Made by a program: the position numbers and the translations under genes | The notes under the pieces: model-generated | What the model was told of the DNA's origin: nothing | The model's input: the letters and a program-made list of their open reading frames with translations, nothing else | The model's database searches: none | Origin: Clostridia bacterium BRH_c25 | GTDB taxonomy: Bacteria; Bacillota_A; Clostridia; Lutisporales; Lutisporaceae | DNA length: 9,577 bases | Direction: 5' to 3' | Assembly (NCBI GenBank): GCA_001515955.1 | Contig: LOES01000031.1 | Span: 1 to 9,577 of the forward strand | Shown here: positions 1 through 9,577 of the stretch, piece by piece | Numbering within the stretch: position 1 is the stretch's first letter | Layout of the letters: the number at the start of each line of letters is the position of its first letter

Positions 1-1128
1 CTCTCTCATTGTCGTTCCCATAGGAACCTCAACAAGACCGGTATTATTTATCTTACCACCCAGTGCAAATACCTTCGTACCCTTGGACTTTTCCGTTCCC
101 ATGCTTGCAAACCATTCCGGACCGTTATTGAATATAGGAGCTATGTTCGCATAGGTTTCTACGTTATTAAGAATTGTCGGCTTTCCAAACAAGCCTTTAA
201 CTGCGGGAAATGGAGGTCTTGGTCTCGGCATACCTCTTTGCCCCTCTATAGAAGCTATAAGTGCTGTTTCCTCTCCACATACAAAGGCACCTGCTCCAAG
301 TCTCACTTCCAGGTCGAATTTGAAGCCCGTACCCATTATGTTTTCCCCGAGCAGTCCATAATTCCTGGCCTGGCTTATTGCTATTGCAAGACGCTTTACA
401 GCTATCGGATACTCTGCTCTGCAATATATATATCCCTGACTGGCTCCTATTGCGTAGCCGGCTATAGCCATTGCTTCAATTACCGAATGAGGATCCCCTT
501 CCAGAACACTTCTGTCCATAAATGCTCCCGGATCTCCTTCGTCAGCATTACACAGTACATATTTCTGATCGTTCTGTGATTTTGCCGCAAAATCCCACTT
601 CATTCCTGTGGGGAAACCAGCACCGCCTCTTCCTCTGAGTCCTGATTTCTTCACTGTATCCACTACTTCTGCCGGTGCCATCTCCGTAAGCACCTTTGCA
701 AGAGCCTTGTAACCGTCAAAAGCTATATACTCGTCTATATTCTCAGGATTAATAATACCACAATTTCTTAACGCAACTCTGACCTGCTTCTTGTAGAAGT
801 CAACCTCTTCGATTGCTTTTATCCTGTTTTCTTCAACGGATTCTGCATAAAGCAATCTCTTTACAACTCTACCTTTTACCAGATGCTCCTTGACTATTTC
901 CTCTATATCCTCAGGCTTAACCATGCTGTAAAAAGAAGCTTCAGGATATATTATTACTATCGGGCCTAAAGCGCAAAGTCCGAAGCATCCGGTTCTTTCC
1001 ACCACAACCTCGCCTTCAAGACCGTTTTTCTTTATTTCCTCATCAAAGTTCTTTGCGATTTGTTCCGAATTTGCAGAAGTACATCCGGTACCTTTGCAAA
1101 TCATGACATGGGAACGATACATCTCCAT
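1..1128 (-). CDS. hydB: NuoF-like flavin subunit of multimeric [FeFe]-hydrogenase (HydB/HndC), 3' end off window
   Basis: This is the NAD(P)H- and FMN-binding subunit of a soluble NAD-linked, probably electron-bifurcating, [FeFe]-hydrogenase. It passes electrons between NADH, ferredoxin and the catalytic subunit in the cytoplasm. The visible 376 codons begin with a thioredoxin-fold [2Fe-2S] domain with all four cysteines (C11, C16, C48, C52). The Complex I 51-kDa core follows: a GRGGAGFPTG NADH-binding loop near residue 167, a DEGDPGAF FMN-site motif near 195, and CGEETALI near 283. The frame is open to position 1, so the C-terminal [4Fe-4S] regions (the family is about 600 residues) lie outside. 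The ATG at 1128 follows GGAGG with 8-nt spacing; an ATG at 1133 is followed directly by a stop codon. It lies 35 bp downstream of the HndB-like gene, and the catalytic subunit gene is expected next. Family assignment is secure; bifurcation is inferred from the subunit set. Confidence 0.95.
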   Translation of the reverse strand, partial: MEMYRSHVMICKGTGCTSANSEQIAKNFDEEIKKNGLEGEVVVERTGCFGLCALGPIVIIYPEASFYSMVKPEDIEEIVKEHLVKGRVVKRLLYAESVEENRIKAIEEVDFYKKQVRVALRNCGIINPENIDEYIAFDGYKALAKVLTEMAPAEVVDTVKKSGLRGRGGAGFPTGMKWDFAAKSQNDQKYVLCNADEGDPGAFMDRSVLEGDPHSVIEAMAIAGYAIGASQGYIYCRAEYPIAVKRLAIAISQARNYGLLGENIMGTGFKFDLEVRLGAGAFVCGEETALIASIEGQRGMPRPRPPFPAVKGLFGKPTILNNVETYANIAPIFNNGPEWFASMGTEKSKGTKVFALGGKINNTGLVEVPMGTTMRE

Positions 1129-1163
1129 TACATTTACCTCCTATATGTTTCGCAAGCCTTCTA

Positions 1164-1532
1164 CTATTTGTCTCCGGCTCCGATTGTATATTCGTCGACA
1201 ACCTTGCCCTGCATAATATGCTCATTCACAATTCTTATAGCTTTTGAAGCGTTTACTTTTATATAGGTAACCTTCTCTTCACCGGGCTTGTATACCTCCA
1301 CAATAGGTTCCAGCCTGCACATACCAATACAGCCTGTCTGCGCAACGACTACATCTGCCAGGTTGTGTTTCTTTACTTCATCCATTATAGAGAGAAGCAC
1401 AGGTCTTGCTCCTGCAGCTATGCCACAGGTTGCCATTCCTACAACTACTCTAGTACCGGATCTATCTTTTCTGACATTGATTGTGTCCAGAGTCTTCTTT
1501 CTGATTTCTTCCAATTCCTGAATTGTTTTCAT
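1164..1532 (-). CDS. hndB: Thioredoxin-like [2Fe-2S] ferredoxin-domain protein (HndB-like hydrogenase subunit)
   Basis: This 122-residue protein has the thioredoxin-like ferredoxin fold found as a small extra subunit (HndB type) in NAD(P)-linked [FeFe]-hydrogenase operons. An electron-transfer or structural role in the complex is likely. The visible motifs are ATCGIAAGARP (C36) and TGCIGMC (C68, C72). Related domains bind [2Fe-2S] through C-x4-C plus C-x3-C. Here the second ligand position (41) is glycine, so only three of the four cysteines are present and cluster binding is uncertain. I chose the ATG at 1532 because GGAGG lies 8 nt upstream. A GTG at 1541 would add three residues but sits inside that ribosome binding site. 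The start is one base after the stop of the upstream ATPase gene, which suggests translational coupling. Confidence 0.88.
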   Translation of the reverse strand: MKTIQELEEIRKKTLDTINVRKDRSGTRVVVGMATCGIAAGARPVLLSIMDEVKKHNLADVVVAQTGCIGMCRLEPIVEVYKPGEEKVTYIKVNASKAIRIVNEHIMQGKVVDEYTIGAGDK

Positions 1533-1533
1533 T

Positions 1534-2097
1534 TTACACACCTCCGCGTAAATTTGCTAAACCTTCATTTATATAATCCTTGATCCACATCAACACGTCG
1601 GGCTCTCCCATCGAAACATCATTACCCAACGCAGTCCTTATCTCTCTTGTATCCAGGCAAAACTCCCCATGGTCAATAATATGCCTGTATACAAAATCAA
1701 CAATTTTGCTTTCATCAGAATCTGAAATAATAAGGCTCAGCATGGTTTCAGCCATGTTCCCAATAGGAGCTCTGTCTATATGGCTGTGCTTGAAGGTTGC
1801 TGTAACCTTTGTTCCTACATTCTTCTCAGATTCTATAACAAGGTCTCCCTCACATCTCTTGCAGGCTGCAAGCATTAGTGGTATCCCGAGACCAACCTTT
1901 CTGCTGGTTCTTGTAGTAACAAAGGGATCCATAACCTTTTCAAGAAAAACCTTATCCATGCCTCTGCCGTTGTCTTCTATGCAAATAGTCATCCTATCTT
2001 TTTCTGTATCTTCAAGGATAGTGATCCTCACCAGACTGGCCCCTGCGGATATTGAATTCTGGGACAAGTCAAGAATATGCAGTGATAAATCTCTCAT
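1534..2097 (-). CDS. Histidine-kinase-type ATPase (HATPase_c) protein in the hydrogenase operon
   Basis: This is a soluble 187-residue GHKL-fold ATP-binding protein with no sensor, transmembrane or phospho-acceptor histidine domain. The N box is at residues 8-20 with N14, the G1 box is EDNGRGM (41-47), a PFVTT segment is at 58-62, and the G2 box is VGLGIPL (68-74). A GTKVT strand near 95-99 closes the ATPase fold. About 80 further residues form a C-terminal extension I do not recognise. The gene lies between the NuoE-like and HndB-like subunit genes, 12 bp after the first and 1 bp before the second. It is therefore co-expressed with the hydrogenase and may regulate, phosphorylate or help assemble it. 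That role is inference. Its own ribosome binding site is weak (AGAAG), so translation probably depends on the upstream gene. The ATG at 2097 is the first in-frame start after the preceding stop. Confidence 0.9.
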   Translation of the reverse strand: MRDLSLHILDLSQNSISAGASLVRITILEDTEKDRMTICIEDNGRGMDKVFLEKVMDPFVTTRTSRKVGLGIPLMLAACKRCEGDLVIESEKNVGTKVTATFKHSHIDRAPIGNMAETMLSLIISDSDESKIVDFVYRHIIDHGEFCLDTREIRTALGNDVSMGEPDVLMWIKDYINEGLANLRGGV

Positions 2098-2109
2098 AAC
2101 TATATGCTT

Positions 2110-2580
2110 CTAGTACTTCTTCAATATTTCCGGAATATCATCAGGTACCAATTTACCGTATACCTCTTCATTGATCATCATTACCGGAGCGAGTCCGCAG
2201 CAGCCCAGGCACCTGGTTGCCTCAAGGGTAAATTTCCCATCTTCCGTCGTTTCTCCTGATGCTACTTCAAGCTCTTCTTTGAGCTTGTCAAGTATGCCCT
2301 GAGCATTCTTAACATAGCAGGCTGTCCCAAGACACACACTTATCGTGTTCTGTCCTCTGGGCTTCAAGGTAAACCTTGAATAAAAGGTAGCGACCCCGTA
2401 TATTTCGGCCAATGGAATGTTCAAAACCTCTGAGATTCTCTTCTGTGCTTCTTCAGGAATAAAGCCGAATAATTCCTGCGTTTCATGGAGAACCGGCATT
2501 AAGCCACCCTGAATATTCTTATGCTCTATAAGAATATTCTCCAATTTCTCCAATTTTTCTTTCATTTCAGCGTCAGACAT
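2110..2580 (-). CDS. hydC: NuoE-like [2Fe-2S] subunit of multimeric [FeFe]-hydrogenase (HydC/HndA)
   Basis: This is the Complex I 24-kDa-type subunit, which carries one [2Fe-2S] cluster and partners the NuoF-like flavoprotein in NAD-linked hydrogenases. It has 156 residues, normal for the family. An N-terminal helical bundle leads into IYGVATFYSRF (60-70), typical of NuoE. The thioredoxin-fold domain follows with cluster ligands C83 and C88 (VCLGTAC) and C124 and C128 (RCLGCCGLAP). C127 is an extra cysteine. The frame can be extended to an ATG at 2649, but the ATG at 2580 has AAGGAGGG about 9-10 nt upstream and gives the normal family length. It is the first hydrogenase-subunit gene after a 185-bp gap containing a candidate promoter, so it may start a separate transcript from the sensory block upstream. 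Confidence 0.95.
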   Translation of the reverse strand: MSDAEMKEKLEKLENILIEHKNIQGGLMPVLHETQELFGFIPEEAQKRISEVLNIPLAEIYGVATFYSRFTLKPRGQNTISVCLGTACYVKNAQGILDKLKEELEVASGETTEDGKFTLEATRCLGCCGLAPVMMINEEVYGKLVPDDIPEILKKY

Positions 2581-2658
2581 TAAAGAGTTCCCTCCTTCAA
2601 AATATTCATGATTACATAATATTACTTTTGCTTGATATAAATTTATCAATTCATGTTC

Positions 2659-2696
2659 TACAATATTGTATCACACATTAGATATTTTTTTAACAA
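2659..2696 (-). promoter_or_regulatory. Candidate extended -10 promoter with overlapping palindrome, upstream of hydC
   Basis: On the minus strand TGATACAAT (2673 to 2665) reads as an extended -10 element. The perfect 12-bp palindrome TACAATATTGTA (2659-2670) overlaps it. The -35 region at 17-bp spacing is weak (TTAAAA). A TTGTTAA half-site, resembling half of the clostridial Rex operator, lies at 2690-2696, but the second half is not conserved. This would place the hydrogenase subunits under partly independent control from the upstream genes. Promoter identity is inferred from sequence alone. Confidence 0.45.
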
Positions 2697-2765
2697 TAAT
2701 TATAAATTTTTTTCTCTGCATGGCATATTCTTATTGGAAGTTGCGAAAAATAAAAATCCCAATGC

Positions 2766-3473
2766 TTAATCCAGTTTATCAAAAAGCTCACTTACACTTA
2801 GGCAATCCAGTTCTATAAAGAATTCCCGTTCATTGATATCTTGAAGATAATGAGCATCAGAAGATACAATATACTTGAATTTGCTCAAGAAGGGATATTT
2901 TTTCAGAGCAGCTGCCGGTGTGAATTTTTTCGAAATTTCTATTGTTTTGACCTTAAGCTCCGGAGGGATGAAACCAAGATTGGCAATAATACTAAAGCCC
3001 GGCCTGTCTACATGAGCCGGGATACAGATCCCTCCAAGGGCTCTGACCAGTATAAATACATCATTGACTGAAAGCGCTGAAGAAGACAGCAGCAGCCTGT
3101 CTTCTTTTCCTACTATTTCATCGGTTCCATTAAAAATCAGCTGCCGTCCAAAAATTTCTTCACTATTCTTTATATCCGGCAACGAATTGTATACTATCTC
3201 TGCGAATTTCATTGCCCCTTCCATTCTTTTAAAAAGGCACACTATATGAACTTCTTCCTTAGTCTGGACTTCCATTCCGGGAATAACCATCAACCCGTTT
3301 TCTCTTGCTGCTTCCATAACTGCAGGAAGGTTAGCGCATGAATTGTGATCTGTGACTGCTATTATATCAAGTCCTTTCAGAAGAGCCATATTCACTATAT
3401 TGCCCGGTGTCATATCCTCATCACCGCATGGAGATAATGCCGAGTGTATGTGAAAATCCACCGCAAATTCCAT
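2766..3473 (-). CDS. PHP-domain metal-dependent phosphoesterase
   Basis: This 235-residue protein belongs to the PHP (polymerase and histidinol phosphatase) family, whose members hydrolyse phosphate esters at a multi-metal site. The full set of likely metal ligands is visible: HxH at H8/H10 (DFHIHS), TDH at 41-43, E68 (PGMEV), H76, H154 (PAHVDRP), and D206/H208 (SSDAH). It is soluble, with no signal peptide. The substrate is unknown. I chose the ATG at 3473, two bases after the stop of the upstream DRTGG gene. The frame extends to 3521, but that start would overlap the neighbour by 47 bp and add 16 residues before the conserved DFHIHS strand. The ribosome binding site is poor, so coupled translation is likely. 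It is the last gene of the sensory-type block. A role in removing a phosphate signal, or hydrolysing a nucleotide made or bound by its neighbours, is speculative. Confidence 0.9.
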   Translation of the reverse strand: MEFAVDFHIHSALSPCGDEDMTPGNIVNMALLKGLDIIAVTDHNSCANLPAVMEAARENGLMVIPGMEVQTKEEVHIVCLFKRMEGAMKFAEIVYNSLPDIKNSEEIFGRQLIFNGTDEIVGKEDRLLLSSSALSVNDVFILVRALGGICIPAHVDRPGFSIIANLGFIPPELKVKTIEISKKFTPAAALKKYPFLSKFKYIVSSDAHYLQDINEREFFIELDCLSVSELFDKLD

Positions 3474-3474
3474 A

Positions 3475-3810
3475 CTATTCAATTCCCATCTTATAAAGTT
3501 CTTTTGCAAGCTCATATGCACTTAAGCTTGATTGGAACACCGGAATTCCTTCATCTTCAGCTTTACGGAGAGTTTCCTCCTCAACCTCTATTCCTTCCGG
3601 CACAATTATACAACCCAGCTCCAACAAAACTGCAACTGCAATAATATTTGAATGAGTCTGGACAGTGATCCACGCATCTCCTTTATTGCCATGGGACATT
3701 ACCCAGCTTAGAAGATCACATATATATGCTCCTGTCAACTCCTTATCAATACCGCTGCTTCCTGCCAACAGCTTCAACCCGATTTTCTCACTGGCATCTC
3801 TGACTCTCAT
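3475..3810 (-). CDS. DRTGG-domain protein (second copy, downstream of HydS-like gene)
   Basis: This small soluble protein of 111 residues has a single DRTGG-like domain. Such domains are otherwise found next to CBS-pair or kinase/phosphotransacetylase domains and are thought to bind ligands or mediate regulation. The pattern visible is a short N-terminal helix, GAYICDLLSWVMS at 27-39, a strand WITVQTHSNIIAVAVLL at 47-63, and ELGCIIVPEGIEV at 64-76. The literal DRTGG tetrad is not present, as is common in the family. It lies 19 bp after the HydS-like gene and 1 bp before the PHP gene start, with AAGGAG about 10 nt before the ATG. It pairs with a diverged second DRTGG gene at the head of the operon, so the two bracket the kinase and iron-sulfur protein. 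No enzymatic residues are recognisable. Function beyond likely ligand sensing is unknown. Confidence 0.8.
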   Translation of the reverse strand: MRVRDASEKIGLKLLAGSSGIDKELTGAYICDLLSWVMSHGNKGDAWITVQTHSNIIAVAVLLELGCIIVPEGIEVEEETLRKAEDEGIPVFQSSLSAYELAKELYKMGIE

Positions 3811-3829
3811 ACATAACCTCTCCTTAACC

Positions 3830-5119
3830 TTATACTTTCTGCTTATTCTTAAAGCTTTCCATTGTTTTAACTATACAGATGGCTTTTTGGTTTTCGCCCT
3901 TTACAATATCTTCAGCAAAGGCTCTGCAGGTTGGTGCCCCACATACACCGCAGTCTATACCCGGCAAAAATTTCAGCATTTCCTTTATCATTTCCATTTT
4001 TCTCATTGATTTGGCAATATCATCATCCAGACGCATTATAGCCCTGGGCTCAATATGCTCAGTCAGCCTTATCAAACCATCCTTATACATTTCTATTTGC
4101 TCTCTTATCTCTTCCTCACCGGCCGCTGAGTCAGGGAGCCCTTGTGAAAGAGCCTTCATCCGGCTTCTGGCTATAAACGGATTCTCAATGGTAAGGGGCC
4201 CGCCGGCACAACCCCCGATACAAGCCATACCTTCAAAAAACTCCAATCCGTCAAGCTTATCCATCTCTATTTCTTCCAACACTTTAATGACCTCATGTAT
4301 CCCGTCAACAGCAAGGTAGTTTTCAATTCCCAAAGACTCCCCCTGCCCTCCAGTCAGCGGCCATAAAAGCGATTTTCTGGTGCTTCTGGTTATAATCTCT
4401 TCCTGACTGCTGCCAATATTTCTCAGTATATCGCCATATATGGCCTTCATCGACAGCACCCCATCTATATATGATTTTTTTATCCCCAGGGGTTTTGTCA
4501 CACTTGTCATTCTGGCTGTACACGGAGAAATAAAGACAACGCCTATCTCATCAATACTGAAGCCGGTCTTTTTTACAGCATCAGCTTTAGCCAAACGGGC
4601 AGCTATCTCCATTGGTGTTTCTATATCGGCCACATTAGGCAGCAGTTCGGGAAACCTGATCTGTATAAGTCTAAGAGTGGCAGGGCATGTAGAATTTATT
4701 ATCGGACGTTTGGCATCAGGGTTTTTGAGCATGTGGTTTTTTATCACATTGTCAATAATCTCCGTTCCCACAGACGCCTCATAAACCTCGTCAAACCCCA
4801 CATTTTTGACCGCTGCAAGCATCTCATTTATTCCTGCTTTATCCGGAAATTGTCCATATAATACCAGCGATGGTATGGCTATAGTATATTTGAATCTTTT
4901 CAATATATCGAGAGTATCTGTAACGGCACTTTTGGCATGATTGGGGCATACTCTTATACATTCACCGCAGTCAATGCATTTTTCGCCGATAATCCGGGCC
5001 TTTCCATCTCTAAGCCTTATGGCCTCAGTAGGACAAATTTTCAAACATCTTGTGCATCCGACACAATTATCATCATTAAGCACAACCGAGTGAAAGTACT
5101 TCTCTCCCACTTCAATCAC
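3830..5119 (-). CDS. HydS-like [FeFe]-hydrogenase-family protein, putative H2/redox sensor
   Basis: This 429-residue soluble iron-sulfur protein is related to the catalytic subunit of [FeFe]-hydrogenases but resembles the sensory (HydS-type) group. Two [4Fe-4S] ferredoxin motifs come first (C19, C22, C25, C29; C48, C51, C54, C58). The H-cluster domain follows and keeps all four cluster cysteines: C145 (STCPA), C200 (SPCTAR), C300 and C304 (MACIGGC). The usual TSCCP motif has lost its first cysteine, which is the proton-transfer residue and is T144 here. The MPCxxKxxE motif reads SPCTARMTS, so its lysine and glutamate are replaced. A C-terminal Fe-S domain has C390, C393, C398 and probably C415. 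There is no PAS domain. The start is GTG at 5119, overlapping the kinase gene by 8 bp, with GAAGG just upstream. Slow or no turnover and a sensing role are inferred from these substitutions and the regulatory neighbours. Confidence 0.9.
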   Translation of the reverse strand: MIEVGEKYFHSVVLNDDNCVGCTRCLKICPTEAIRLRDGKARIIGEKCIDCGECIRVCPNHAKSAVTDTLDILKRFKYTIAIPSLVLYGQFPDKAGINEMLAAVKNVGFDEVYEASVGTEIIDNVIKNHMLKNPDAKRPIINSTCPATLRLIQIRFPELLPNVADIETPMEIAARLAKADAVKKTGFSIDEIGVVFISPCTARMTSVTKPLGIKKSYIDGVLSMKAIYGDILRNIGSSQEEIITRSTRKSLLWPLTGGQGESLGIENYLAVDGIHEVIKVLEEIEMDKLDGLEFFEGMACIGGCAGGPLTIENPFIARSRMKALSQGLPDSAAGEEEIREQIEMYKDGLIRLTEHIEPRAIMRLDDDIAKSMRKMEMIKEMLKFLPGIDCGVCGAPTCRAFAEDIVKGENQKAICIVKTMESFKNKQKV

Positions 5120-5543
5120 CTGCCTTCAAATCTACTTCCATAGCAATAACAGTACCTTTTCCAACTGAAGAATTTGCACGGAACCTATCTGTGCATTTTT
5201 TCATATTCGGCAGACCCATGCCTGCTCCAAAGCCCATTTCCCTTACTTTTTCAGTAGCAGTTGAATAACCTTCCCGCATAGCCAGTTCCAAATCAGCTAT
5301 GCCAGGCCCCCTGTCACTTGCAGTCACCTTTATACAGCCTGGTGTAACCTCTAAAGCAATCTGACCACCCAGAGAGTGAATTACTATATTCATTTCTGCC
5401 TCATAAGTAGCTATGGAAATCTTTCTTATAGCACCAGAGTCAATACCCAGCTGCCTTAAAATTTTCTTTATATTGCTGGATGCCTCTCCGGCTCTGACGA
5501 AATCATCCTTCTCCACATCAAAAACATATCTGATATCTTCCAT
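5112..5543 (-). CDS. RsbT-like serine kinase / anti-sigma-factor-type ATPase
   Basis: This 143-residue GHKL-fold protein belongs to the RsbW/RsbT/SpoIIAB class, which phosphorylates serine or threonine on STAS-domain partners or binds sigma factors. It shows the N box YEAEMNIVIH (E48, N52, H56), the G1 box DRGPGI (77-82), LAMREGYST (87-95) and the G2 box GFGAGMGLPNMKK (104-116). The DRGPGI...GYST...GLP pattern is closer to RsbT-type switch kinases than to RsbW. No STAS anti-anti-sigma protein or PP2C phosphatase lies in the window, so its target is unknown. GGAGG stands 9 nt before the ATG at 5543. The end overlaps the GTG start of the HydS-like gene by 8 bp, which points to coupled translation and perhaps a physical complex. 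I infer that it relays the state of the iron-sulfur protein. Confidence 0.9.
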   Translation of the reverse strand: MEDIRYVFDVEKDDFVRAGEASSNIKKILRQLGIDSGAIRKISIATYEAEMNIVIHSLGGQIALEVTPGCIKVTASDRGPGIADLELAMREGYSTATEKVREMGFGAGMGLPNMKKCTDRFRANSSVGKGTVIAMEVDLKAGD

Positions 5544-5586
5544 TTTAGTAAGCCTCCAATAAAATAAACGGGGATGCCGAACCCTA

Positions 5587-5937
5587 TTAGTCTATGCTTA
5601 CTCCTTCAAGCCCGTTGCTGTAAAGCTTTCCTGAGGCAGTATACATAGTGTCTCTGGTCAACAGCAGTACGATATCATTCTCAGTAGCGAGTTTTATTAT
5701 ATCTTGTTCCGGTTTTTTTCCTCTTACAAAAACAATAGCACTTAAGTCTGCCATTTCTGCAGTTCTTACCACTTGCTGATTTGTAAGCCCCGTGAGAAGA
5801 ATTGTCTTGCCTTTTACATAGGCCAGTACATCGCTCATAAGATCAGACCCAAATGCATATAAAACTTCATTTTCCATAAGATTATTCCCGCACAGCACCT
5901 TTGCATCCAGTATTTCTCTAACCTCACATATTTTCAT
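5587..5937 (-). CDS. DRTGG-domain protein (first copy, head of operon)
   Basis: This small soluble protein of 116 residues consists of one DRTGG-like domain. Features seen are an N-terminal helix with MKICEVREIL, then AFGSDLMSDVLAYV at 28-41, KTILLTGLTNQQVVRTAE at 44-61, SAIVFVRGKKP at 66-76, and a terminal helix-strand pair with DIVLLLT at 88-94. It is similar in length and layout to the other DRTGG gene in this operon but clearly diverged. This may reflect an old duplication with separate roles. GGGAG lies 7 nt before the ATG at 5937. It is the first gene of the leftward cluster and lies 43 bp before the kinase gene. The region upstream carries paired TTTCGCG boxes. A regulatory ligand-binding role is inferred; no ligand can be named. 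Confidence 0.8.
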   Translation of the reverse strand: MKICEVREILDAKVLCGNNLMENEVLYAFGSDLMSDVLAYVKGKTILLTGLTNQQVVRTAEMADLSAIVFVRGKKPEQDIIKLATENDIVLLLTRDTMYTASGKLYSNGLEGVSID

Positions 5938-5964
5938 AAATAAACTCCCTCATAAAACAATATA

Positions 5965-6009
5965 TTTCGCGAAAACCATTTTAAATTCTTAATTCAAATT
6001 TCGCGTAAA
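5965..6009 (-). promoter_or_regulatory. Paired TTTCGCG-core boxes around a candidate promoter of the leftward operon
   Basis: A perfect 10-bp palindrome TTTCGCGAAA (5965-5974) and a near copy TTTCGCGTAAA (5999-6009) lie with centres 34 bp apart. Between them, read leftward, is TAAAAT (5983 to 5978), a reasonable -10. The second box falls where the -35 would be (about 6001-6006) and the first falls near the expected transcription start. No good -35 hexamer is seen, which would fit a promoter needing an activator or blocked by a repressor. I do not recognise the binding protein. Confidence 0.4.
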
Positions 6010-6024
6010 TGTTTCCTTGATTGT

Positions 6025-6072
6025 TATTGAATTCGCACTTTACCCTAGAGAAATGCTTTTGTGCGTTCAATA
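6025..6072. repeat. Long imperfect inverted repeat in divergent intergenic region
   Basis: The arms TATTGAATTCGCAC (6025-6038) and GTGCGTTCAATA (6061-6072) pair over 12 bp with a 2-nt bulge (TT in the left arm), leaving a 22-nt loop. Neither side is followed by a T-run, so it does not look like a terminator. It could be an operator for a dimeric or tetrameric regulator, or a structured leader of either divergent gene. Confidence 0.5.
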
Positions 6073-6132
6073 TAGTTTGTAGTATATTTGATACTCTAAT
6101 CATCCACCACAATGATATTATACATTATAGAA

Positions 6133-6159
6133 TAAATAAAAACGATAACTAATTGATAT
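6133..6159 (+). promoter_or_regulatory. Sigma-D-like promoter candidate for the lytic transglycosylase gene
   Basis: TAAA (6133-6136) and ATTGATAT (6152-6159) are separated by exactly 15 bp. The motility sigma factor consensus is TAAA-N15-GCCGATAT, and five of eight -10 bases match. The region is AT-rich, so chance agreement is quite possible. Motility-linked expression would suit a CwlQ-like transglycosylase. Confidence 0.3.
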
Positions 6160-6202
6160 ATGTCGCCAATTGTAATAAAATGAAAGAAAGGAGTTGATCA
6201 AG

Positions 6203-6742
6203 TTGTCTTCCATTTTATCAGGCATCCTGCGTCAAAAGCTTTCAGAAATACAAAGTCAGCTTCCATCTTACGTAAAGATTATGAAGGACACTGCACCAAG
6301 CTTCGAAAAAATTCTTGAGGATGAGATAATTGAGCCTCTGGATTATCAAAGCCAGTCAAGCAATGACTATAGTCAATTAATCGAAGCCGCTTCAAAAAAA
6401 TATAATATCAACAGCAATATAATAAATGCAGTGATAAAAGCAGAATCAAGCTTTAACCCCAAAGCGGTATCAAGAACAGGTGCAATGGGCCTCATGCAGC
6501 TTATGCCCGGAACCGCCAAAGCGTTAGGTGTAAGTAATGCTTTTGATCCCAGTGAAAACATAGATGGAGGCGTCAGGTACCTTAAGGATATGCTGTCTGA
6601 ATTTGGCGGCAGTCTGGAGCTTGCACTTGCAGCATACAATGCAGGCCCCAACAGTGTCAAGAAGTACGGCGGGATACCTCCTTATAAAGAAACACAGAAC
6701 TACGTAAAAAAAGTAATGTCAGGCTTGAAAAACAAGGCATAA
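6203..6742 (+). CDS. Soluble lytic murein transglycosylase (SLT domain)
   Basis: This 179-residue protein has a C-terminal lysozyme-like SLT domain that cleaves the glycan strands of peptidoglycan. The catalytic glutamate is E81 in [12 protein letters not shown]. It is followed by [13 protein letters not shown] (93-105) and ALAAYNAGP (141-149), all standard family 1 motifs. About 55 N-terminal residues form a helical region with no signal peptide or membrane segment. This resembles Bacillus CwlQ/YjbJ-type enzymes, which also lack one. The start is probably TTG at 6203, because AAAGGAG ends 9 nt upstream. Another TTG at 6194 directly abuts that site and would add three residues. It is divergent from the hydrogenase cluster and ends 27 bp before the convergent acetyltransferase gene. 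How it reaches the wall is not evident. Confidence 0.92.
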
Positions 6743-6769
6743 TAAATTATAGGATAGCCCTGAGCTTCT

Positions 6770-7348
6770 TCATGTTATTTCCTTCTTCATTATTATAAAA
6801 TCAGCAGCCAGATTTTTAAGCTCAATATACTGTTCTATGGTTCTAAAATAGTTGAACTCAAGTTTCTGCCAAAAGGACTTCCCTATTTCGTTTCCGGCTA
6901 TTACACCTATATATACTCTTTTAACATCATAGCTCTTATTAAGCATGTCAATAAAGGCTCTGGCAGTCTTTGTCCCTATTCCCAGCCTTTGGTATCTGTT
7001 GTCTATAAGTATTGAGGATATCCAAGCTTCTTCGCTGTTTTCATAATCGATTCTTCCTTTGATCACGCCAACCAGCTGCGGACCGGAAGCCTTGTCAAGG
7101 AAAATCCCCGTGAAAAACTCATGGCTGTTGACAAGCACTTCCAGATACTTTTGATTTATATCCTCCAGGGACATCCTTCTGTCTATGCCCGTAGCATATA
7201 TGTTCAGCTCATTCTGGTTATATAAATCCAAGACATCCCCCAGGTCTTCCTTTGTGATATCCTTAAAGATCAGATTATCCAATTGTTTATTTAGAGTAAG
7301 CATTTCATTCACCTGCATATAGCACACTAAAAAATCTAATGCGCTCAT
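6770..7348 (-). CDS. GNAT-family N-acetyltransferase
   Basis: This predicted cytoplasmic acetyltransferase of up to 192 residues transfers an acetyl group from acetyl-CoA to an unknown amine. The GNAT fold is recognisable from LIFKDITKEDLGDVLDLY (26-43), the central strand AWISSILID (108-116), and the acetyl-CoA loop RYQRLGIGTKTA (118-129). SFWQKLEFNYFRT then marks the last conserved motif. The substrate cannot be inferred from the sequence or its neighbours. The start is uncertain. The ATG at 7348 follows GAGG at only 4 nt, while an ATG at 7303 follows AGGTGA at 5 nt and gives a 177-residue protein starting nearer the domain. The gene stands alone, divergent from the HD-GYP gene and convergent with the transglycosylase. 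I see no clear promoter or terminator for it. Confidence 0.85.
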   Translation of the reverse strand: MSALDFLVCYMQVNEMLTLNKQLDNLIFKDITKEDLGDVLDLYNQNELNIYATGIDRRMSLEDINQKYLEVLVNSHEFFTGIFLDKASGPQLVGVIKGRIDYENSEEAWISSILIDNRYQRLGIGTKTARAFIDMLNKSYDVKRVYIGVIAGNEIGKSFWQKLEFNYFRTIEQYIELKNLAADFIIMKKEIT

Positions 7349-7382
7349 ATTACCTCAATTTAGTGTTTAAGCCCTATATATA

Positions 7383-7401
7383 TATTCTACACAACAGAAT
7401 A
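7383..7401. repeat. Short perfect inverted repeat upstream of the acetyltransferase gene
   Basis: TATTCT (7383-7388) and AGAATA (7396-7401) form a perfect 6-bp inverted repeat around a 7-base loop, next to a run of alternating TA (about 7375-7384). It lies about 35 bp before the acetyltransferase start and could be an operator. The rest of the 245-bp divergent region holds only the HD-GYP promoter and a tandem GATTTTCT pair (7551-7566). Confidence 0.3.
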
Positions 7402-7507
7402 AATTCCTCTTTTATATCCTTAGTGCAGCGCTGAAATAAGCTAATTCCAGACCTTTCCACACTATTACCTTATAATTTACATTTTTAAGCAAAATTTGTT
7501 AATAATC

Positions 7508-7535
7508 TTTACATTATCCATATTTAATATATAAT
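7508..7535 (+). promoter_or_regulatory. Sigma-A-type promoter of the HD-GYP gene
   Basis: TTTACA (7508-7513) and TATAAT (7530-7535) are separated by 16 bp. The -35 matches five of six consensus bases and the -10 matches all six. Transcription would start near 7542, leaving a leader of about 50 nt. I see no c-di-GMP riboswitch in that short leader. Confidence 0.7.
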
Positions 7536-7593
7536 CATAAATATAAGCATGATTTTCTGATTTTCTTAATCCAACTTGAAAGAAACAGGTGAT

Positions 7594-8631
7594 ATGATGG
7601 CCGAAGTAAGAGTAATGAAAACTTCAGATTGTGAACCTGGGATGGTGTTGGCTTCGGACGTAGTAAACGATTATGGAGCAGTAATACTATACCAGAATTC
7701 AAAATTGGATGAGTATTCCATCAATAAACTGACCAAGCTTGGTTTGAATTTTATAAAGGTTTATACCGATTATGAATTCAAGGAAAAGAAGCAAATTGTT
7801 GTTGAAGCCCAATACAATAACAATTTGGAGGAATTCAAGCAGATAATATGGGATATAAGCTGCGGAAGAAACTTGCAAATGGATCGTATAAGTGAAGTTT
7901 CCAAAAGTCTCAGCAACAACTTTGATTCGATAAACGACCTGGTTTTTTGTCTCAGCAAGGTCAGATCAATTAATGAGTATACCTATACCCACAGTTTAAA
8001 TGTATCTCTCCTGTGCTCCCTGCTGGGTTCCTGGCTGAATCTCAACCATACTCACATTGAGCAGCTTTCTTATTGCGGAATATTGCATGATATAGGAAAG
8101 TCAAAGGTACCTAAAGAAATACTTAACAAGCCGGATACACTTAATGAAAAGGAATTCAATGAAATAAAAAAACATCCTGTTACAGGCTATAAGCTGCTTG
8201 AGCAGAATGACGAAATAAGCAAGGATGTTGCTCTGGGAGTATTAATGCATCACGAAAGGGAGGATGGCTCCGGTTATCCCTTCGGACTGAAATCAAAGCA
8301 GATTCATTATTATGCAAAAGTCCTCGCTGTAGTTGATATATTTGACGCAATGACCTCCAACCGGGTACACAAGAAACGCCAGCCGCCTTTCGACGTGCTT
8401 GAAATGTATGAAAGTGAATATCTGACAAAATGTGATGCCAGCATAATGCTTACTTTTCTCAAGCATATATCAAGCTATTATGTCGGAAATATGGTCAAGC
8501 TGAGCAACGGCTCCGTTGGAGAAATAGTGTATATTAATCCCAACAGGATTTCCCGCCCTCTAATAAAGTCAAAGGATAACATTATTGATCTCAGTGTGAT
8601 GCCTGAAATAAAAATTGTAGAAATGCTGTAA
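7594..8631 (+). CDS. HD-GYP domain cyclic-di-GMP phosphodiesterase
   Basis: HD-GYP proteins hydrolyse the second messenger c-di-GMP and so influence motility, adhesion and biofilm. This one has about 345 residues. The N-terminal 120 or so form the small region often found before HD-GYP domains (CEPGMVLASDV, then YGAVIL), with no transmembrane segment or receiver domain. The catalytic domain shows the metal site residues H133 (THSLN), GILHDIGK with H165/D166, KHP at 193-195, HHEREDGSGYP with H219/H220 and GYP at 227-229, and AVVDIFDAMTSNR with D248. All key residues are present, so activity is expected. A C-terminal segment with GNMVKLSNGSVGEIV (a small beta domain) follows. The start is ATG at 7594 or 7597 after AGGTGA. 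A TTG at 7576 lies in the same frame but has no ribosome binding site. It is monocistronic with its own promoter. Its input signal is unknown. Confidence 0.93.
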   Translation: MMAEVRVMKTSDCEPGMVLASDVVNDYGAVILYQNSKLDEYSINKLTKLGLNFIKVYTDYEFKEKKQIVVEAQYNNNLEEFKQIIWDISCGRNLQMDRISEVSKSLSNNFDSINDLVFCLSKVRSINEYTYTHSLNVSLLCSLLGSWLNLNHTHIEQLSYCGILHDIGKSKVPKEILNKPDTLNEKEFNEIKKHPVTGYKLLEQNDEISKDVALGVLMHHEREDGSGYPFGLKSKQIHYYAKVLAVVDIFDAMTSNRVHKKRQPPFDVLEMYESEYLTKCDASIMLTFLKHISSYYVGNMVKLSNGSVGEIVYINPNRISRPLIKSKDNIIDLSVMPEIKIVEML

Positions 8632-8658
8632 TTACAGGTCAATAATTTAGAGGAGATT

Positions 8659-8715
8659 ATGATTTTTTATTTGATGCTTATAAATATAATGTATTTAATG
8701 AATATTCTGGTATAA
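8659..8715 (+). CDS. Possible 18-residue hydrophobic peptide ORF upstream of fba
   Basis: An ATG at 8659 follows AGAGGAG at short spacing and opens a frame of 18 codons ending in TAA. The peptide is almost wholly hydrophobic (begins MIFYLMLINIM). It lies between the HD-GYP gene and fba and overlaps the candidate fba promoter. It may be a chance frame in AT-rich DNA. No function is claimed. Confidence 0.15.
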   Translation: MIFYLMLINIMYLMNILV

Positions 8716-8716
8716 T
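8708..8716 (+). promoter_or_regulatory. Extended -10 promoter candidate for the fba leader
   Basis: TGGTATAAT is a full extended -10 element (TGn plus TATAAT). No recognisable -35 is present at 16-18 bp, which such promoters can tolerate. Transcription would start near 8723, giving a 135-nt leader before fba. Confidence 0.5.
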
Positions 8717-8732
8717 AATAGGAGTAGTGGAA

Positions 8733-8759
8733 AAATGCACTGTTTTCATAAAAGCATTT
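8733..8759 (+). repeat. Hairpin-forming inverted repeat in the fba leader
   Basis: AAATGC (8733-8738) pairs with GCATTT (8754-8759), and an inner TTTT/AAAA pair closes over CAT. A T-rich tract (8770-8776) lies about 10 nt further on. The stem is AT-rich and weak as a terminator. It may be part of a folded leader or small RNA together with the stronger hairpin at 8789. Confidence 0.35.
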
Positions 8760-8788
8760 ATCACGCTTCTTTTTTTAAGCCTATAGAA

Positions 8789-8817
8789 GTTCTGATATGC
8801 GATCAGTAACGCTTTTT
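8789..8817 (+). terminator. Intrinsic-terminator-like hairpin upstream of fba
   Basis: GTTCTGAT (8789-8796) pairs with ATCAGTAAC (8802-8810) around loop ATGCG, with one bulged T at 8807, and is followed by GC and TTTTT (8813-8817). It ends 40 bp before the fba start and lies downstream of the extended -10 promoter. It could attenuate fba, end a short RNA of about 95 nt, or terminate HD-GYP transcription. An AGAAG at 8785-8789 can also pair with CTTCT at 8766-8770, which would compete with the base of this stem. Confidence 0.45.
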
Positions 8818-8857
8818 ATAATAATAGTGTATTAAAATATATGTAGGAGGTATCATC

Positions 8858-9577
8858 ATGCCATTAGTTACATCAAAGGAAATGTTCAAAAAAGCATATG
8901 AAGGTAAGTATGCAGTGGGTGCATTTAATGTCAACAATATGGAAATAATTCAGGGTATTGTTGATGCGGCAAAAGAAGAAAAAGCTCCACTCATACTGCA
9001 GGTTTCAGCCGGTGCGAGAAAATATGCAAAGCATATATATCTTATGAAGCTTGTTGAAGCAGCAGTAGAGGACAGTGGTCTCCCAATCTGCCTTCACCTG
9101 GATCACGGCGAAGATTTTGAGATCTGCAAGTCTTGCATTGATGGTGGATTTACATCAGTAATGATTGACGGTTCCAAGCATTCCTTCGAGGAAAACATCG
9201 CAGTGACAAAAAAGGTTGTAGAGTACGCCCATGAGAGAGGCGTAGTGGTAGAAGCCGAGCTGGGCAAGCTGGCAGGGGTTGAGGATGCTGTAAAGGTTGC
9301 TGCAAAAGATGCTACATATACCGATCCCGACCAGGCAGTTGAATTCGTTCAGAGAACAGGGGTTGATTCTCTTGCAATAGCAATTGGCACCAGCCATGGA
9401 GCATACAAGTTCAAAGGAGAACCTGAGCTTGACTTTGCAAGACTTGAGAAAATCTCAAAGCTGCTGCCGGACTACCCATTGGTACTGCATGGAGCTTCCA
9501 CAGTGCTTCCTGAGTTTGTAGAGCTTTGCAACAAATATGGCGGCAATGTGGCAGGAGCACAAGGGGTTCCTGAGGAT
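8858..9577 (+). CDS. fba: Class II fructose-1,6-bisphosphate aldolase, 3' end off window
   Basis: This zinc-dependent glycolytic and gluconeogenic enzyme reversibly splits fructose-1,6-bisphosphate into dihydroxyacetone phosphate and glyceraldehyde-3-phosphate in the cytoplasm. The first 240 residues are present, of about 305-310 in the family, and the frame is open at the right edge. Visible residues are the N-terminal GAFNVNNME (21-29), HLDHGEDFE with catalytic D82 and zinc ligand H83, VEAELGKLAG (131-140), GTSHGAYK with H180, and LHGAST with H211. The glycine-rich phosphate-binding loops fit the family. The ATG at 8858 follows a strong TAGGAGG 8 nt upstream. The gene is transcribed alone from a candidate extended -10 promoter through a leader with a terminator-like hairpin, so attenuation is possible. 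Codon use looks like that of a highly expressed gene. Confidence 0.96.
   Translation, partial: MPLVTSKEMFKKAYEGKYAVGAFNVNNMEIIQGIVDAAKEEKAPLILQVSAGARKYAKHIYLMKLVEAAVEDSGLPICLHLDHGEDFEICKSCIDGGFTSVMIDGSKHSFEENIAVTKKVVEYAHERGVVVEAELGKLAGVEDAVKVAAKDATYTDPDQAVEFVQRTGVDSLAIAIGTSHGAYKFKGEPELDFARLEKISKLLPDYPLVLHGASTVLPEFVELCNKYGGNVAGAQGVPED

Follow-up and report, generated by a model that had tools for sequence, protein, structure and literature searches.

A co-inherited five-gene cassette joins a group D HydS-like protein to a SpoIIAB-type kinase, two DRTGG proteins and a PHP enzyme: a candidate H2/redox signaling module of Clostridia

[FeFe] hydrogenases of the M2e type, or group D, are classed as sensory because their genes lie near those of protein kinases and bifurcating hydrogenases (PMC3561251, which lists Athe_1292 of Caldicellulosiruptor bescii among the M2e type). 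One of them, TamHydS from Thermoanaerobacter mathranii, is reported to change its secondary structure under H2 (PMC13104023). The HydS proteins of group C (Thermotoga maritima, Ruminococcus albus, and hfsB of Thermoanaerobacterium) are likewise hydrogenase-linked H-cluster sensors with a PF04060 domain, but differ from group D in having a PAS domain; for the R. albus protein, a neighboring Ser/Thr kinase has been suggested as the recipient of its signal (reported in PMC5707799). Here, we analyze a 9,577-nucleotide stretch of Clostridia bacterium BRH_c25 (contig LOES01000031.1, positions 1 to 9,577; the window) in which a group D HydS-like protein is encoded within a five-gene cassette. Transcribed in order from the minus strand are the single-domain protein DRTGG-1 (116 aa, 5587..5937), a SpoIIAB/RsbT-type GHKL protein kinase (143 aa, 5112..5543), the HydS-like [FeFe] protein (3830..5119), DRTGG-2 (111 aa, 3475..3810) and a PHP-family metal-dependent phosphoesterase (235 aa, 2766..3473), followed by NuoE, a second GHKL protein, a 2Fe-2S protein and NuoF. 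We propose that these five genes form a dedicated H2/redox signaling cassette of group D [FeFe] hydrogenases in which the kinase acts on a DRTGG protein, a reading that we hold at even probability.

The five proteins are co-inherited as one unit. We searched a profile of 13 relatives against 391 genomes of one class, taken as Clostridia, and found a match in 187 of them at E ≤ 1e-45; the 184 of these that reach E ≤ 1e-100 are counted as having the group D HydS (HydS-D). The three others (G044, G142 and G355, with matches around 1e-46) have neither DRTGG-1 nor DRTGG-2, and their HydS-type proteins probably belong to another group. From these matches we fetched 100 loci, the 60 best-scoring places and 40 further ones, a sample that leans to better-scoring loci and leaves the lowest-scoring unlisted. 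All five genes stand in the same order on one strand in 92 of the 100 loci, which excludes chance; the median gaps are 0, 14, 2.5 and -1 nt when the earliest start codon is taken, and in two of the 92 (L084 and L095) DRTGG-2 lies about 4 kb after HydS. Counted singly, the kinase is present in 99 loci, DRTGG-1 in 98, DRTGG-2 in 97 and the PHP enzyme in 94. Of the eight loci that are not complete, two (L063 and L093) run into contig ends, and L092 has no DRTGG-1 in the 0.6 kb before its contig start and a DRTGG-1 match elsewhere in its genome. L102 and L094 have DRTGG-2 on another contig of the same genome, which for L094 begins DRTGG-2-PHP-NuoE and continues to HydA; L110, L112 and L127 lack PHP. 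An earlier reading of the window from its letters and open reading frames (ORFs), the sequence-only reading, had made co-conservation beyond close relatives a test of its proposed sensory module, and the order indeed turns up in roughly half of the class as sampled. It is also listed in print for Halanaerobium (PMC4237134).

Genome-wide counts agree with the loci. At E ≤ 1e-6, DRTGG-1 matches 194 and DRTGG-2 matches 199 of the 391 genomes. Among the 184 HydS-D genomes, DRTGG-1 is found in 183 (all except G088), with three weak matches of 1e-8 to 1e-20 (G053, G286 and G339), and DRTGG-2 in all 184, with one weak match (G061); since the two profiles cross-match, a weak match may be the other paralogue. 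At strict cut-offs, HydS and DRTGG-1 occur together in 180 genomes, HydS alone in four, DRTGG-1 alone in four and neither in 203 (Fisher p ~3e-101, not corrected for kinship). No natural fusions among the cassette genes were found in the 100 loci. Partial distance correlations, calculated for three gene/locus sets of 91, 67 and 75 loci, give 0.37, 0.21 and 0.41 for DRTGG-1 with the kinase and 0.44, 0.46 and 0.33 for DRTGG-2 with the PHP enzyme, a weak hint at these two pairings.

By every feature tested, the window HydS is a group D (M2e) member. It has two N-terminal [4Fe-4S] sites, an H-cluster domain and a C-terminal Cx2Cx4Cx16C motif, matches Fe_hyd_lg_C (106.9 bits) and the PF04060 FeS domain (46.0 bits), and has no PAS domain among its Pfam matches. 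We counted residue conservation over 100 rows for HydS and the kinase (for the kinase, the window plus 99 loci) and over fewer rows for the other three proteins. The window protein and all 100 rows keep the eight ferredoxin-type and four H-cluster cysteines, and 98 of the 100 rows keep the C-terminal motif, formed in the window by C390, C393, C398 and C415. The equivalent of C299 is T144, at a position that holds A in 71 rows, S in 16, D in 5, T in 4, N in 2 and L in 1 (one row unlisted), and the equivalent of M353 is S198, where T occurs in 64 rows, S in 35 and A in 1. These features are the published marks of the group (PMC8163306; PMC6984386). HydS-D is a suspected hydrogen sensor.

TamHydS resembles the window protein in domain order, in the Cx2Cx4Cx16C motif, in a hydroxyl residue at the M353 position and in lacking PAS, and its gene also lies upstream of a bifurcating hydrogenase and adjoins a histidine-kinase-like ATPase (PMC8163306). 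It differs in having an AraC neighbor, and the excerpt of that paper mentions neither DRTGG nor PHP partners. A printed counterpart is the Halanaerobium hydrogeniformans operon Halsa_1862-1871, listed in the excerpted part of PMC4237134, with no functional comment there, as hydrogenase, NADH dehydrogenase, ferredoxin, histidine kinase, NuoE, PHP, "iron-sulfur binding hydrogenase," FeS protein, anti-sigma kinase and an unidentified ORF. This is the gene order of our cassette, and by their positions Halsa_1868 and Halsa_1871 would be the DRTGG proteins. The proximity of kinases to M2e hydrogenases is already published. In the open-licence PMC literature we found no paper that discusses a partnership of DRTGG or PHP proteins with HydS, although subscription papers could contain one. 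A single paper there, a mutant-library study of D. vulgaris, mentions both DRTGG and hydrogenase, each word once.

The kinase (HATPase_c, 36.9 bits) carries the hallmarks of a GHKL ATPase, with the N-box Glu and Asn, DxGxG and a glycine-rich lid all present in its sequence. Every one of the 100 rows keeps E48, E50, N52, H56, DxGxG and the lid glycines 104, 106, 108 and 110, and in an alignment with SpoIIAB the N-box Glu and Asn fall opposite E48 and N52. Its profile finds SpoIIAB structures as the best matches in the PDB (7e-11), and the NCBIfam model TIGR01925 (spIIAB) matches at 1.3e-13 and 51.1 bits. Because this falls under the 135-bit equivalog cut-off for the anti-sigma F factor, the protein is a relative of SpoIIAB, not SpoIIAB itself. 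The sequence-only reading had called it RsbT-like, whereas its sole curated NCBIfam match, below cut-off, and its best structures are SpoIIAB. This homology is also the main attraction of an alternative in which the kinase works as a genuine anti-sigma factor on a sigma factor encoded elsewhere. One of the DRTGG proteins would be the anti-anti-sigma partner, and transcription the output. The missed SpoIIAB cut-off argues against it, and no sigma gene family recurs among the neighbor clusters of the 100 loci, as judged mostly by sequence reading with no dedicated sigma search. We consider this quite improbable.

In the SpoIIAA-SpoIIAB and RsbT-RsbS systems, a stand-alone GHKL kinase is encoded beside small single-domain alpha/beta proteins, as it is in the cassette. 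The cassette differs in that no STAS or PP2C gene is linked to it, that its small proteins have the DRTGG fold instead, and that their phosphorylation is only predicted. Both match PF07085 above its gathering cut-off of 25.2 bits (39.5 for DRTGG-1 and 26.8 for DRTGG-2). AlphaFold2 models of high confidence (predicted local distance difference test scores of 90.9 and 98.0) predict DRTGG folds, with TM-scores by query length of 0.70-0.84 to 2ioj, 3l2b and 3l31; the top PDB matches are the DRTGG domains 2ioj and 3l2b for DRTGG-1 and 2ioj for DRTGG-2, and the next-nearest structure is the N-domain of HPr kinase. Among 99 DRTGG-1 rows, D32 is kept in 97, S35 in 97, D36 in 98, T49 in 98 and N53 in 94, with a further conserved G103, while D32, S35, T49 and N55 are invariant in 98 rows of DRTGG-2. 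The two proteins therefore share a near-invariant D-L-x-S...T pattern (D32, S35 and T49) with an Asn at 53 or 55, and the models place these residues near where helices 34-40 and 54-62 begin. In a weak alignment (E 0.03), the D-L-x-S pattern is not shared by the DRTGG protein AF1212. Both AF1212 and the CBS-pyrophosphatases have the DRTGG fold in common with the cassette proteins, which are distinguished as single-domain paired paralogues in a hydrogenase-linked cassette. In STAS proteins, the phosphoserine caps a helix, and because the modeled Ser35 would do likewise we single it out as the first candidate phosphosite, with a ligand pocket as an equal alternative.

That ligand pocket is central to a second alternative, in which DRTGG-1 and DRTGG-2 serve as adaptors that bind a ligand (an adenine nucleotide or a phosphometabolite) and the PHP enzyme acts as a phosphoesterase on nucleotides. 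The GHKL protein would then sense ATP/ADP instead of phosphorylating a protein, and HydS would link this readout of energy state to H2 or redox. The conserved DRTGG residues are placed near the beginnings of helices, a location common to many ligand sites. Nucleotide-regulated pyrophosphatases contain DRTGG domains, and DRTGG-2 persists alone in some genomes (below). The PHP enzyme (PF02811, 45.2 bits) points the same way: nucleoside bisphosphate phosphatase and RNase RNM are among the further models that match it, each below its cut-off, and one of its two structure matches is an exoribonuclease. Its residues H9, H11, D43, H44, E69, H77, H155, D207 and H209 (numbered as in window positions 2766-3476), which from the PHP family we take to be metal ligands (HxH, DH, E, H, H, DxH), are kept in 94-95 of 95 rows. 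Set against this alternative are the strictly kept catalytic residues of the kinase and the fact that the DRTGG-1 profile match to CBS-pyrophosphatase spans just its C-terminal half. On balance we regard it as unlikely. The conserved residues of both the kinase and the PHP enzyme are consistent with activity.

Classical partners of such a kinase are not linked to the cassette. In 24 cassette genomes, the STAS match closest to HydS-D is 27 kb away, and no SpoIIE-type PP2C above the cut-off lies within 20 kb (the nearest is at about 21 kb); one below-cut-off SpoIIE match (17.2 bits) is found 5 kb from HydS-D in G197. When we clustered neighboring ORFs of at least 80 aa from the 100 loci and inspected the 45 largest clusters, no sixth cassette family beyond the hydrogenase subunits was present in more than 21 of the 100 loci on the cassette strand. 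The commonest of the other same-strand neighbors is a SPOR-domain protein (21 of 100), and at one locus (L118) another HATPase protein is encoded about 4 kb downstream on the opposite strand. With no linked STAS or PP2C and with intact kinase and PHP residues, the idea of a compact, self-contained module of sensory type is borne out. The accompanying claim that no STAS or PP2C partner is present survives at the locus; genome-wide it fails, as members of both families are encoded elsewhere in all 24 genomes.

The cassette is separable from the hydrogenase operon beside which it usually stands. Within the fetched stretches, a second HATPase gene is found at 77 of the 100 loci, NuoE at 71 and a long [FeFe] hydrogenase at 52; 22 loci have none of the three, and 16 of these have long flanks. 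Fourteen of the 16 hold all five genes, L127 lacks PHP, and L094 is split across contigs; at L113, the cassette adjoins dihydroorotate dehydrogenase genes. A full-length HydA-type protein is encoded in all 21 genomes checked, 16 with a separated cassette and five without HydS-D (in G025, HydA adjoins a DRTGG-2-PHP half), so a genome can have a hydrogenase without the cassette, and where the two lie apart it would have to act in trans. These observations bear on a third alternative, in which the GHKL proteins are ATP-driven chaperones that, together with the DRTGG and PHP proteins, mature or protect [FeFe] hydrogenases, with HydS-D as a scaffold. Its appeal lies in the usual position beside hydrogenase genes and in the two GHKL proteins of the operon. 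The 16 long-flank loci with no hydrogenase neighbor and the five genomes, of unstated completeness, with HydA and no HydS-D speak against it, as does the reported activity of TamHydS itself with a synthetic cofactor (PMC8163306), and we judge it very unlikely.

The gap between PHP and NuoE also sets the hydrogenase genes apart. It measures 185 nt in the window (2581..2765). By mechanically chosen start codons, its median among relatives is 181 nt and all 64 gaps exceed 50 nt; the NuoE-HATPase gap has a median of 4.5 nt. Because the gap is long against the medians of -1 to 14 nt within the cassette, the hydrogenase genes are probably transcribed from a promoter of their own. In the window, a promoter-like site with a TG-extended TACAAT precedes NuoE (2693-2665, minus strand); the scanned region holds 13 such sites, not above shuffled sequences (mean 11.2). 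Sites resembling the Rex motif TTGTTAA-N4-TTAACAA with at most two mismatches precede NuoE in 26 of 72 sequences (for example, L078 and L106) and DRTGG-1 in 11 of 99, where letter shuffles gave 3 of 360 and 4 of 495, respectively; none is found in the window at this threshold. Together, the gap and the Rex-like sites before NuoE suggest that the hydrogenase genes are transcribed separately in many genomes, under NADH-linked control distinct from the cassette. A single operon with the hydrogenase is weakened by this gap and by the cassettes that have no hydrogenase neighbors, and simple control in cis is disfavored by the 16 long-flank loci and the promoter-sized gap. The sequence-only reading had put the cassette directly upstream of hydrogenase subunits, a description that this gap amends.

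How might the five proteins work together? HydS would bind H2, or read the redox state of ferredoxin, and change conformation, which would gate its partner, the SpoIIAB-type kinase. The kinase may then phosphorylate a DRTGG protein or, in its ATP state, bind it reversibly, with the DRTGG protein in the role that classical partner switching gives to a STAS anti-anti-sigma protein. The PHP enzyme, most likely with DRTGG-2, would reset the switch, either as a phosphatase or by disposing of a nucleotide ligand. Once switched, the DRTGG protein would influence in trans both the hydrogenase, through its activity or its expression, and redox metabolism more widely. A signaling role is supported by the gene order in 92 of 100 loci, the co-occurrence, the 16 hydrogenase-free loci, the conserved motifs and the homology to SpoIIAB, as well as by the absence of STAS and above-cut-off SpoIIE genes near the cassette in 24 genomes and by a DRTGG-1-kinase pair that survives alone in G200. 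More tentatively, and in our view with a smaller prospect of being right than of being wrong, the cassette may represent a new class of partner switch, with DRTGG in place of STAS, a SpoIIAB-type kinase gated by an H-cluster sensor, and PHP in place of PP2C as the reset. The cassette would then be the general H2/redox signaling route for the group D hydrogenases of a large fraction of Clostridia.

Several observations weigh against this signaling reading. The shared D, S, T and N residues of the DRTGG proteins could serve to hold a ligand and not to accept phosphate, and the STAS and SpoIIE-type genes found elsewhere in all 24 genomes make partners in trans possible. The partial distance correlation between the kinase and HydS is unstable (0.28, 0.10 and 0.18), and pairs reaching outside the cassette score equally high (HydS-NuoE 0.39; kinase-second HATPase 0.32). 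Three loci (L110, L112 and L127) have DRTGG-2 and lack PHP. Four genomes have DRTGG-1 only: two end at a contig edge in or just after the kinase, G356 is another, and G200 is a true DRTGG-1-kinase pair with no HydS whose kinase has lost E50 and H56. DRTGG-2 without HydS occurs in 15 genomes; we inspected seven of them (G136, G200, G335, G069, G140, G205 and G229) together with G245. The contig of G069 is cut at DRTGG-2, and G229 encodes kinase, DRTGG-2 and PHP before NuoE, without DRTGG-1 or HydS. In G140, G205 and G245, DRTGG-2 stands alone between genes of the uridine kinase family and a SpoU-type RNA methylase (identified by Pfam for L149), which argues that it has a function independent of kinase and sensor. 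These solo proteins (L149, L150 and L152, at about 9470-9970) retain D32, L-L-S35, T49 and N55, and in the relatives L082, L088 and L097 the whole cassette lies beside the same upstream gene, as judged by sequence reading. The loss patterns thus single out neither DRTGG protein as the kinase target.

In the window itself, all five minus-strand ORFs carry the domains that had been claimed for them, with Pfam matches above gathering cut-offs, and they are compactly packed. DRTGG-1 and the kinase are separated by 43 nt, HydS and DRTGG-2 by 19 nt, and DRTGG-2 and PHP by 1 nt (PHP ATG at 3473). The claimed gaps of 1-43 bp hold, and the claimed start/stop overlap of kinase and sensor applies only if HydS starts at GTG 5119 (8-nt overlap). 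GTG 5110, which leaves a 1-nt gap, is the more likely start because it aligns with the start codons of relatives and has AGGTGA 5 nt upstream. Beyond the PHP-NuoE gap, and also on the minus strand, lie the NuoE-type hydrogenase subunit with its 2Fe-2S thioredoxin-like domain (2110..2580; PF01257, 175.1 bits), a second stand-alone GHKL ATPase that is a member of the hydrogenase operon and was absent from the earlier finding (1534..2097; PF02518, 54.3 bits), a 2Fe-2S ferredoxin-like subunit (1164..1541; NF041612 at 2.7e-10, below cut-off, and no Pfam match) and a NuoF-type flavin subunit that runs off the window edge (1..1128; PF01512 Nuo51 FMN-binding, 163.8 bits). On the far side of the cassette, 6194-8631 encodes a lytic transglycosylase, a GNAT-like acetyltransferase and an HD-domain protein; the first two recur at 14 of 100 loci and the third at 7. 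The region 5' of DRTGG-1 (5938-6190) contains two TTTCGCG(A/T)AAA near-palindromes. As a shared operator they were rejected, since neither TTTCGCG nor its complement occurs upstream of DRTGG-1 in any of 98 relatives.

Group C sensors show other arrangements. Ten hydrogenase loci from G002-G004, among which hfsA is not included, gave no DRTGG or SpoIIAB-type match, and the idea that group C operons contain a DRTGG protein (hfsA) was set aside; PAS-type group C was confirmed by Pfam in three of the ten, L136 (only 4.5 kb), L137 and L138, the last of which also has an ORF of 761 aa that matches the second HATPase (48 bits). In G003, a PAS-type group C HydS gene is followed directly by a 391-aa ORF for a SpoIIE-type PP2C (L138:8096-9817 and G003:C7:955442-956011, both minus). 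This genome therefore combines a group D sensor linked to a kinase with a group C sensor linked to a phosphatase, and in the boldest form of the tentative partner-switch reading two such sensors of the same genome would drive a single shared switch in opposing directions. L137:7739-10474 (minus) encodes a 911-aa protein with an H-cluster domain, C-terminal FeS, PAS, a sigma-54 activator AAA+ domain and a helix-turn-helix, directly upstream of NuoE, NuoF-like and HydA-like ORFs; it is apparently a one-component H2-sensing sigma-54 activator. A 637-aa protein at L143:7952-9865 (minus) combines an H-cluster domain and a PF04060-like FeS region, just below cut-off, with the signaling domain of methyl-accepting chemotaxis proteins and is predicted to be a chemotaxis-type H2 sensor.

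Co-inheritance names four partner proteins for the group D sensor, and these are candidates for its missing signaling partners. The cassette is common, occurring in 184 of the 391 sampled genomes, and is not tied to a neighboring hydrogenase. If our reading is correct, single-domain DRTGG proteins would gain a function. It would also explain how many fermenting anaerobes read H2 or the state of ferredoxin, which bears on their yields of H2 and ethanol.

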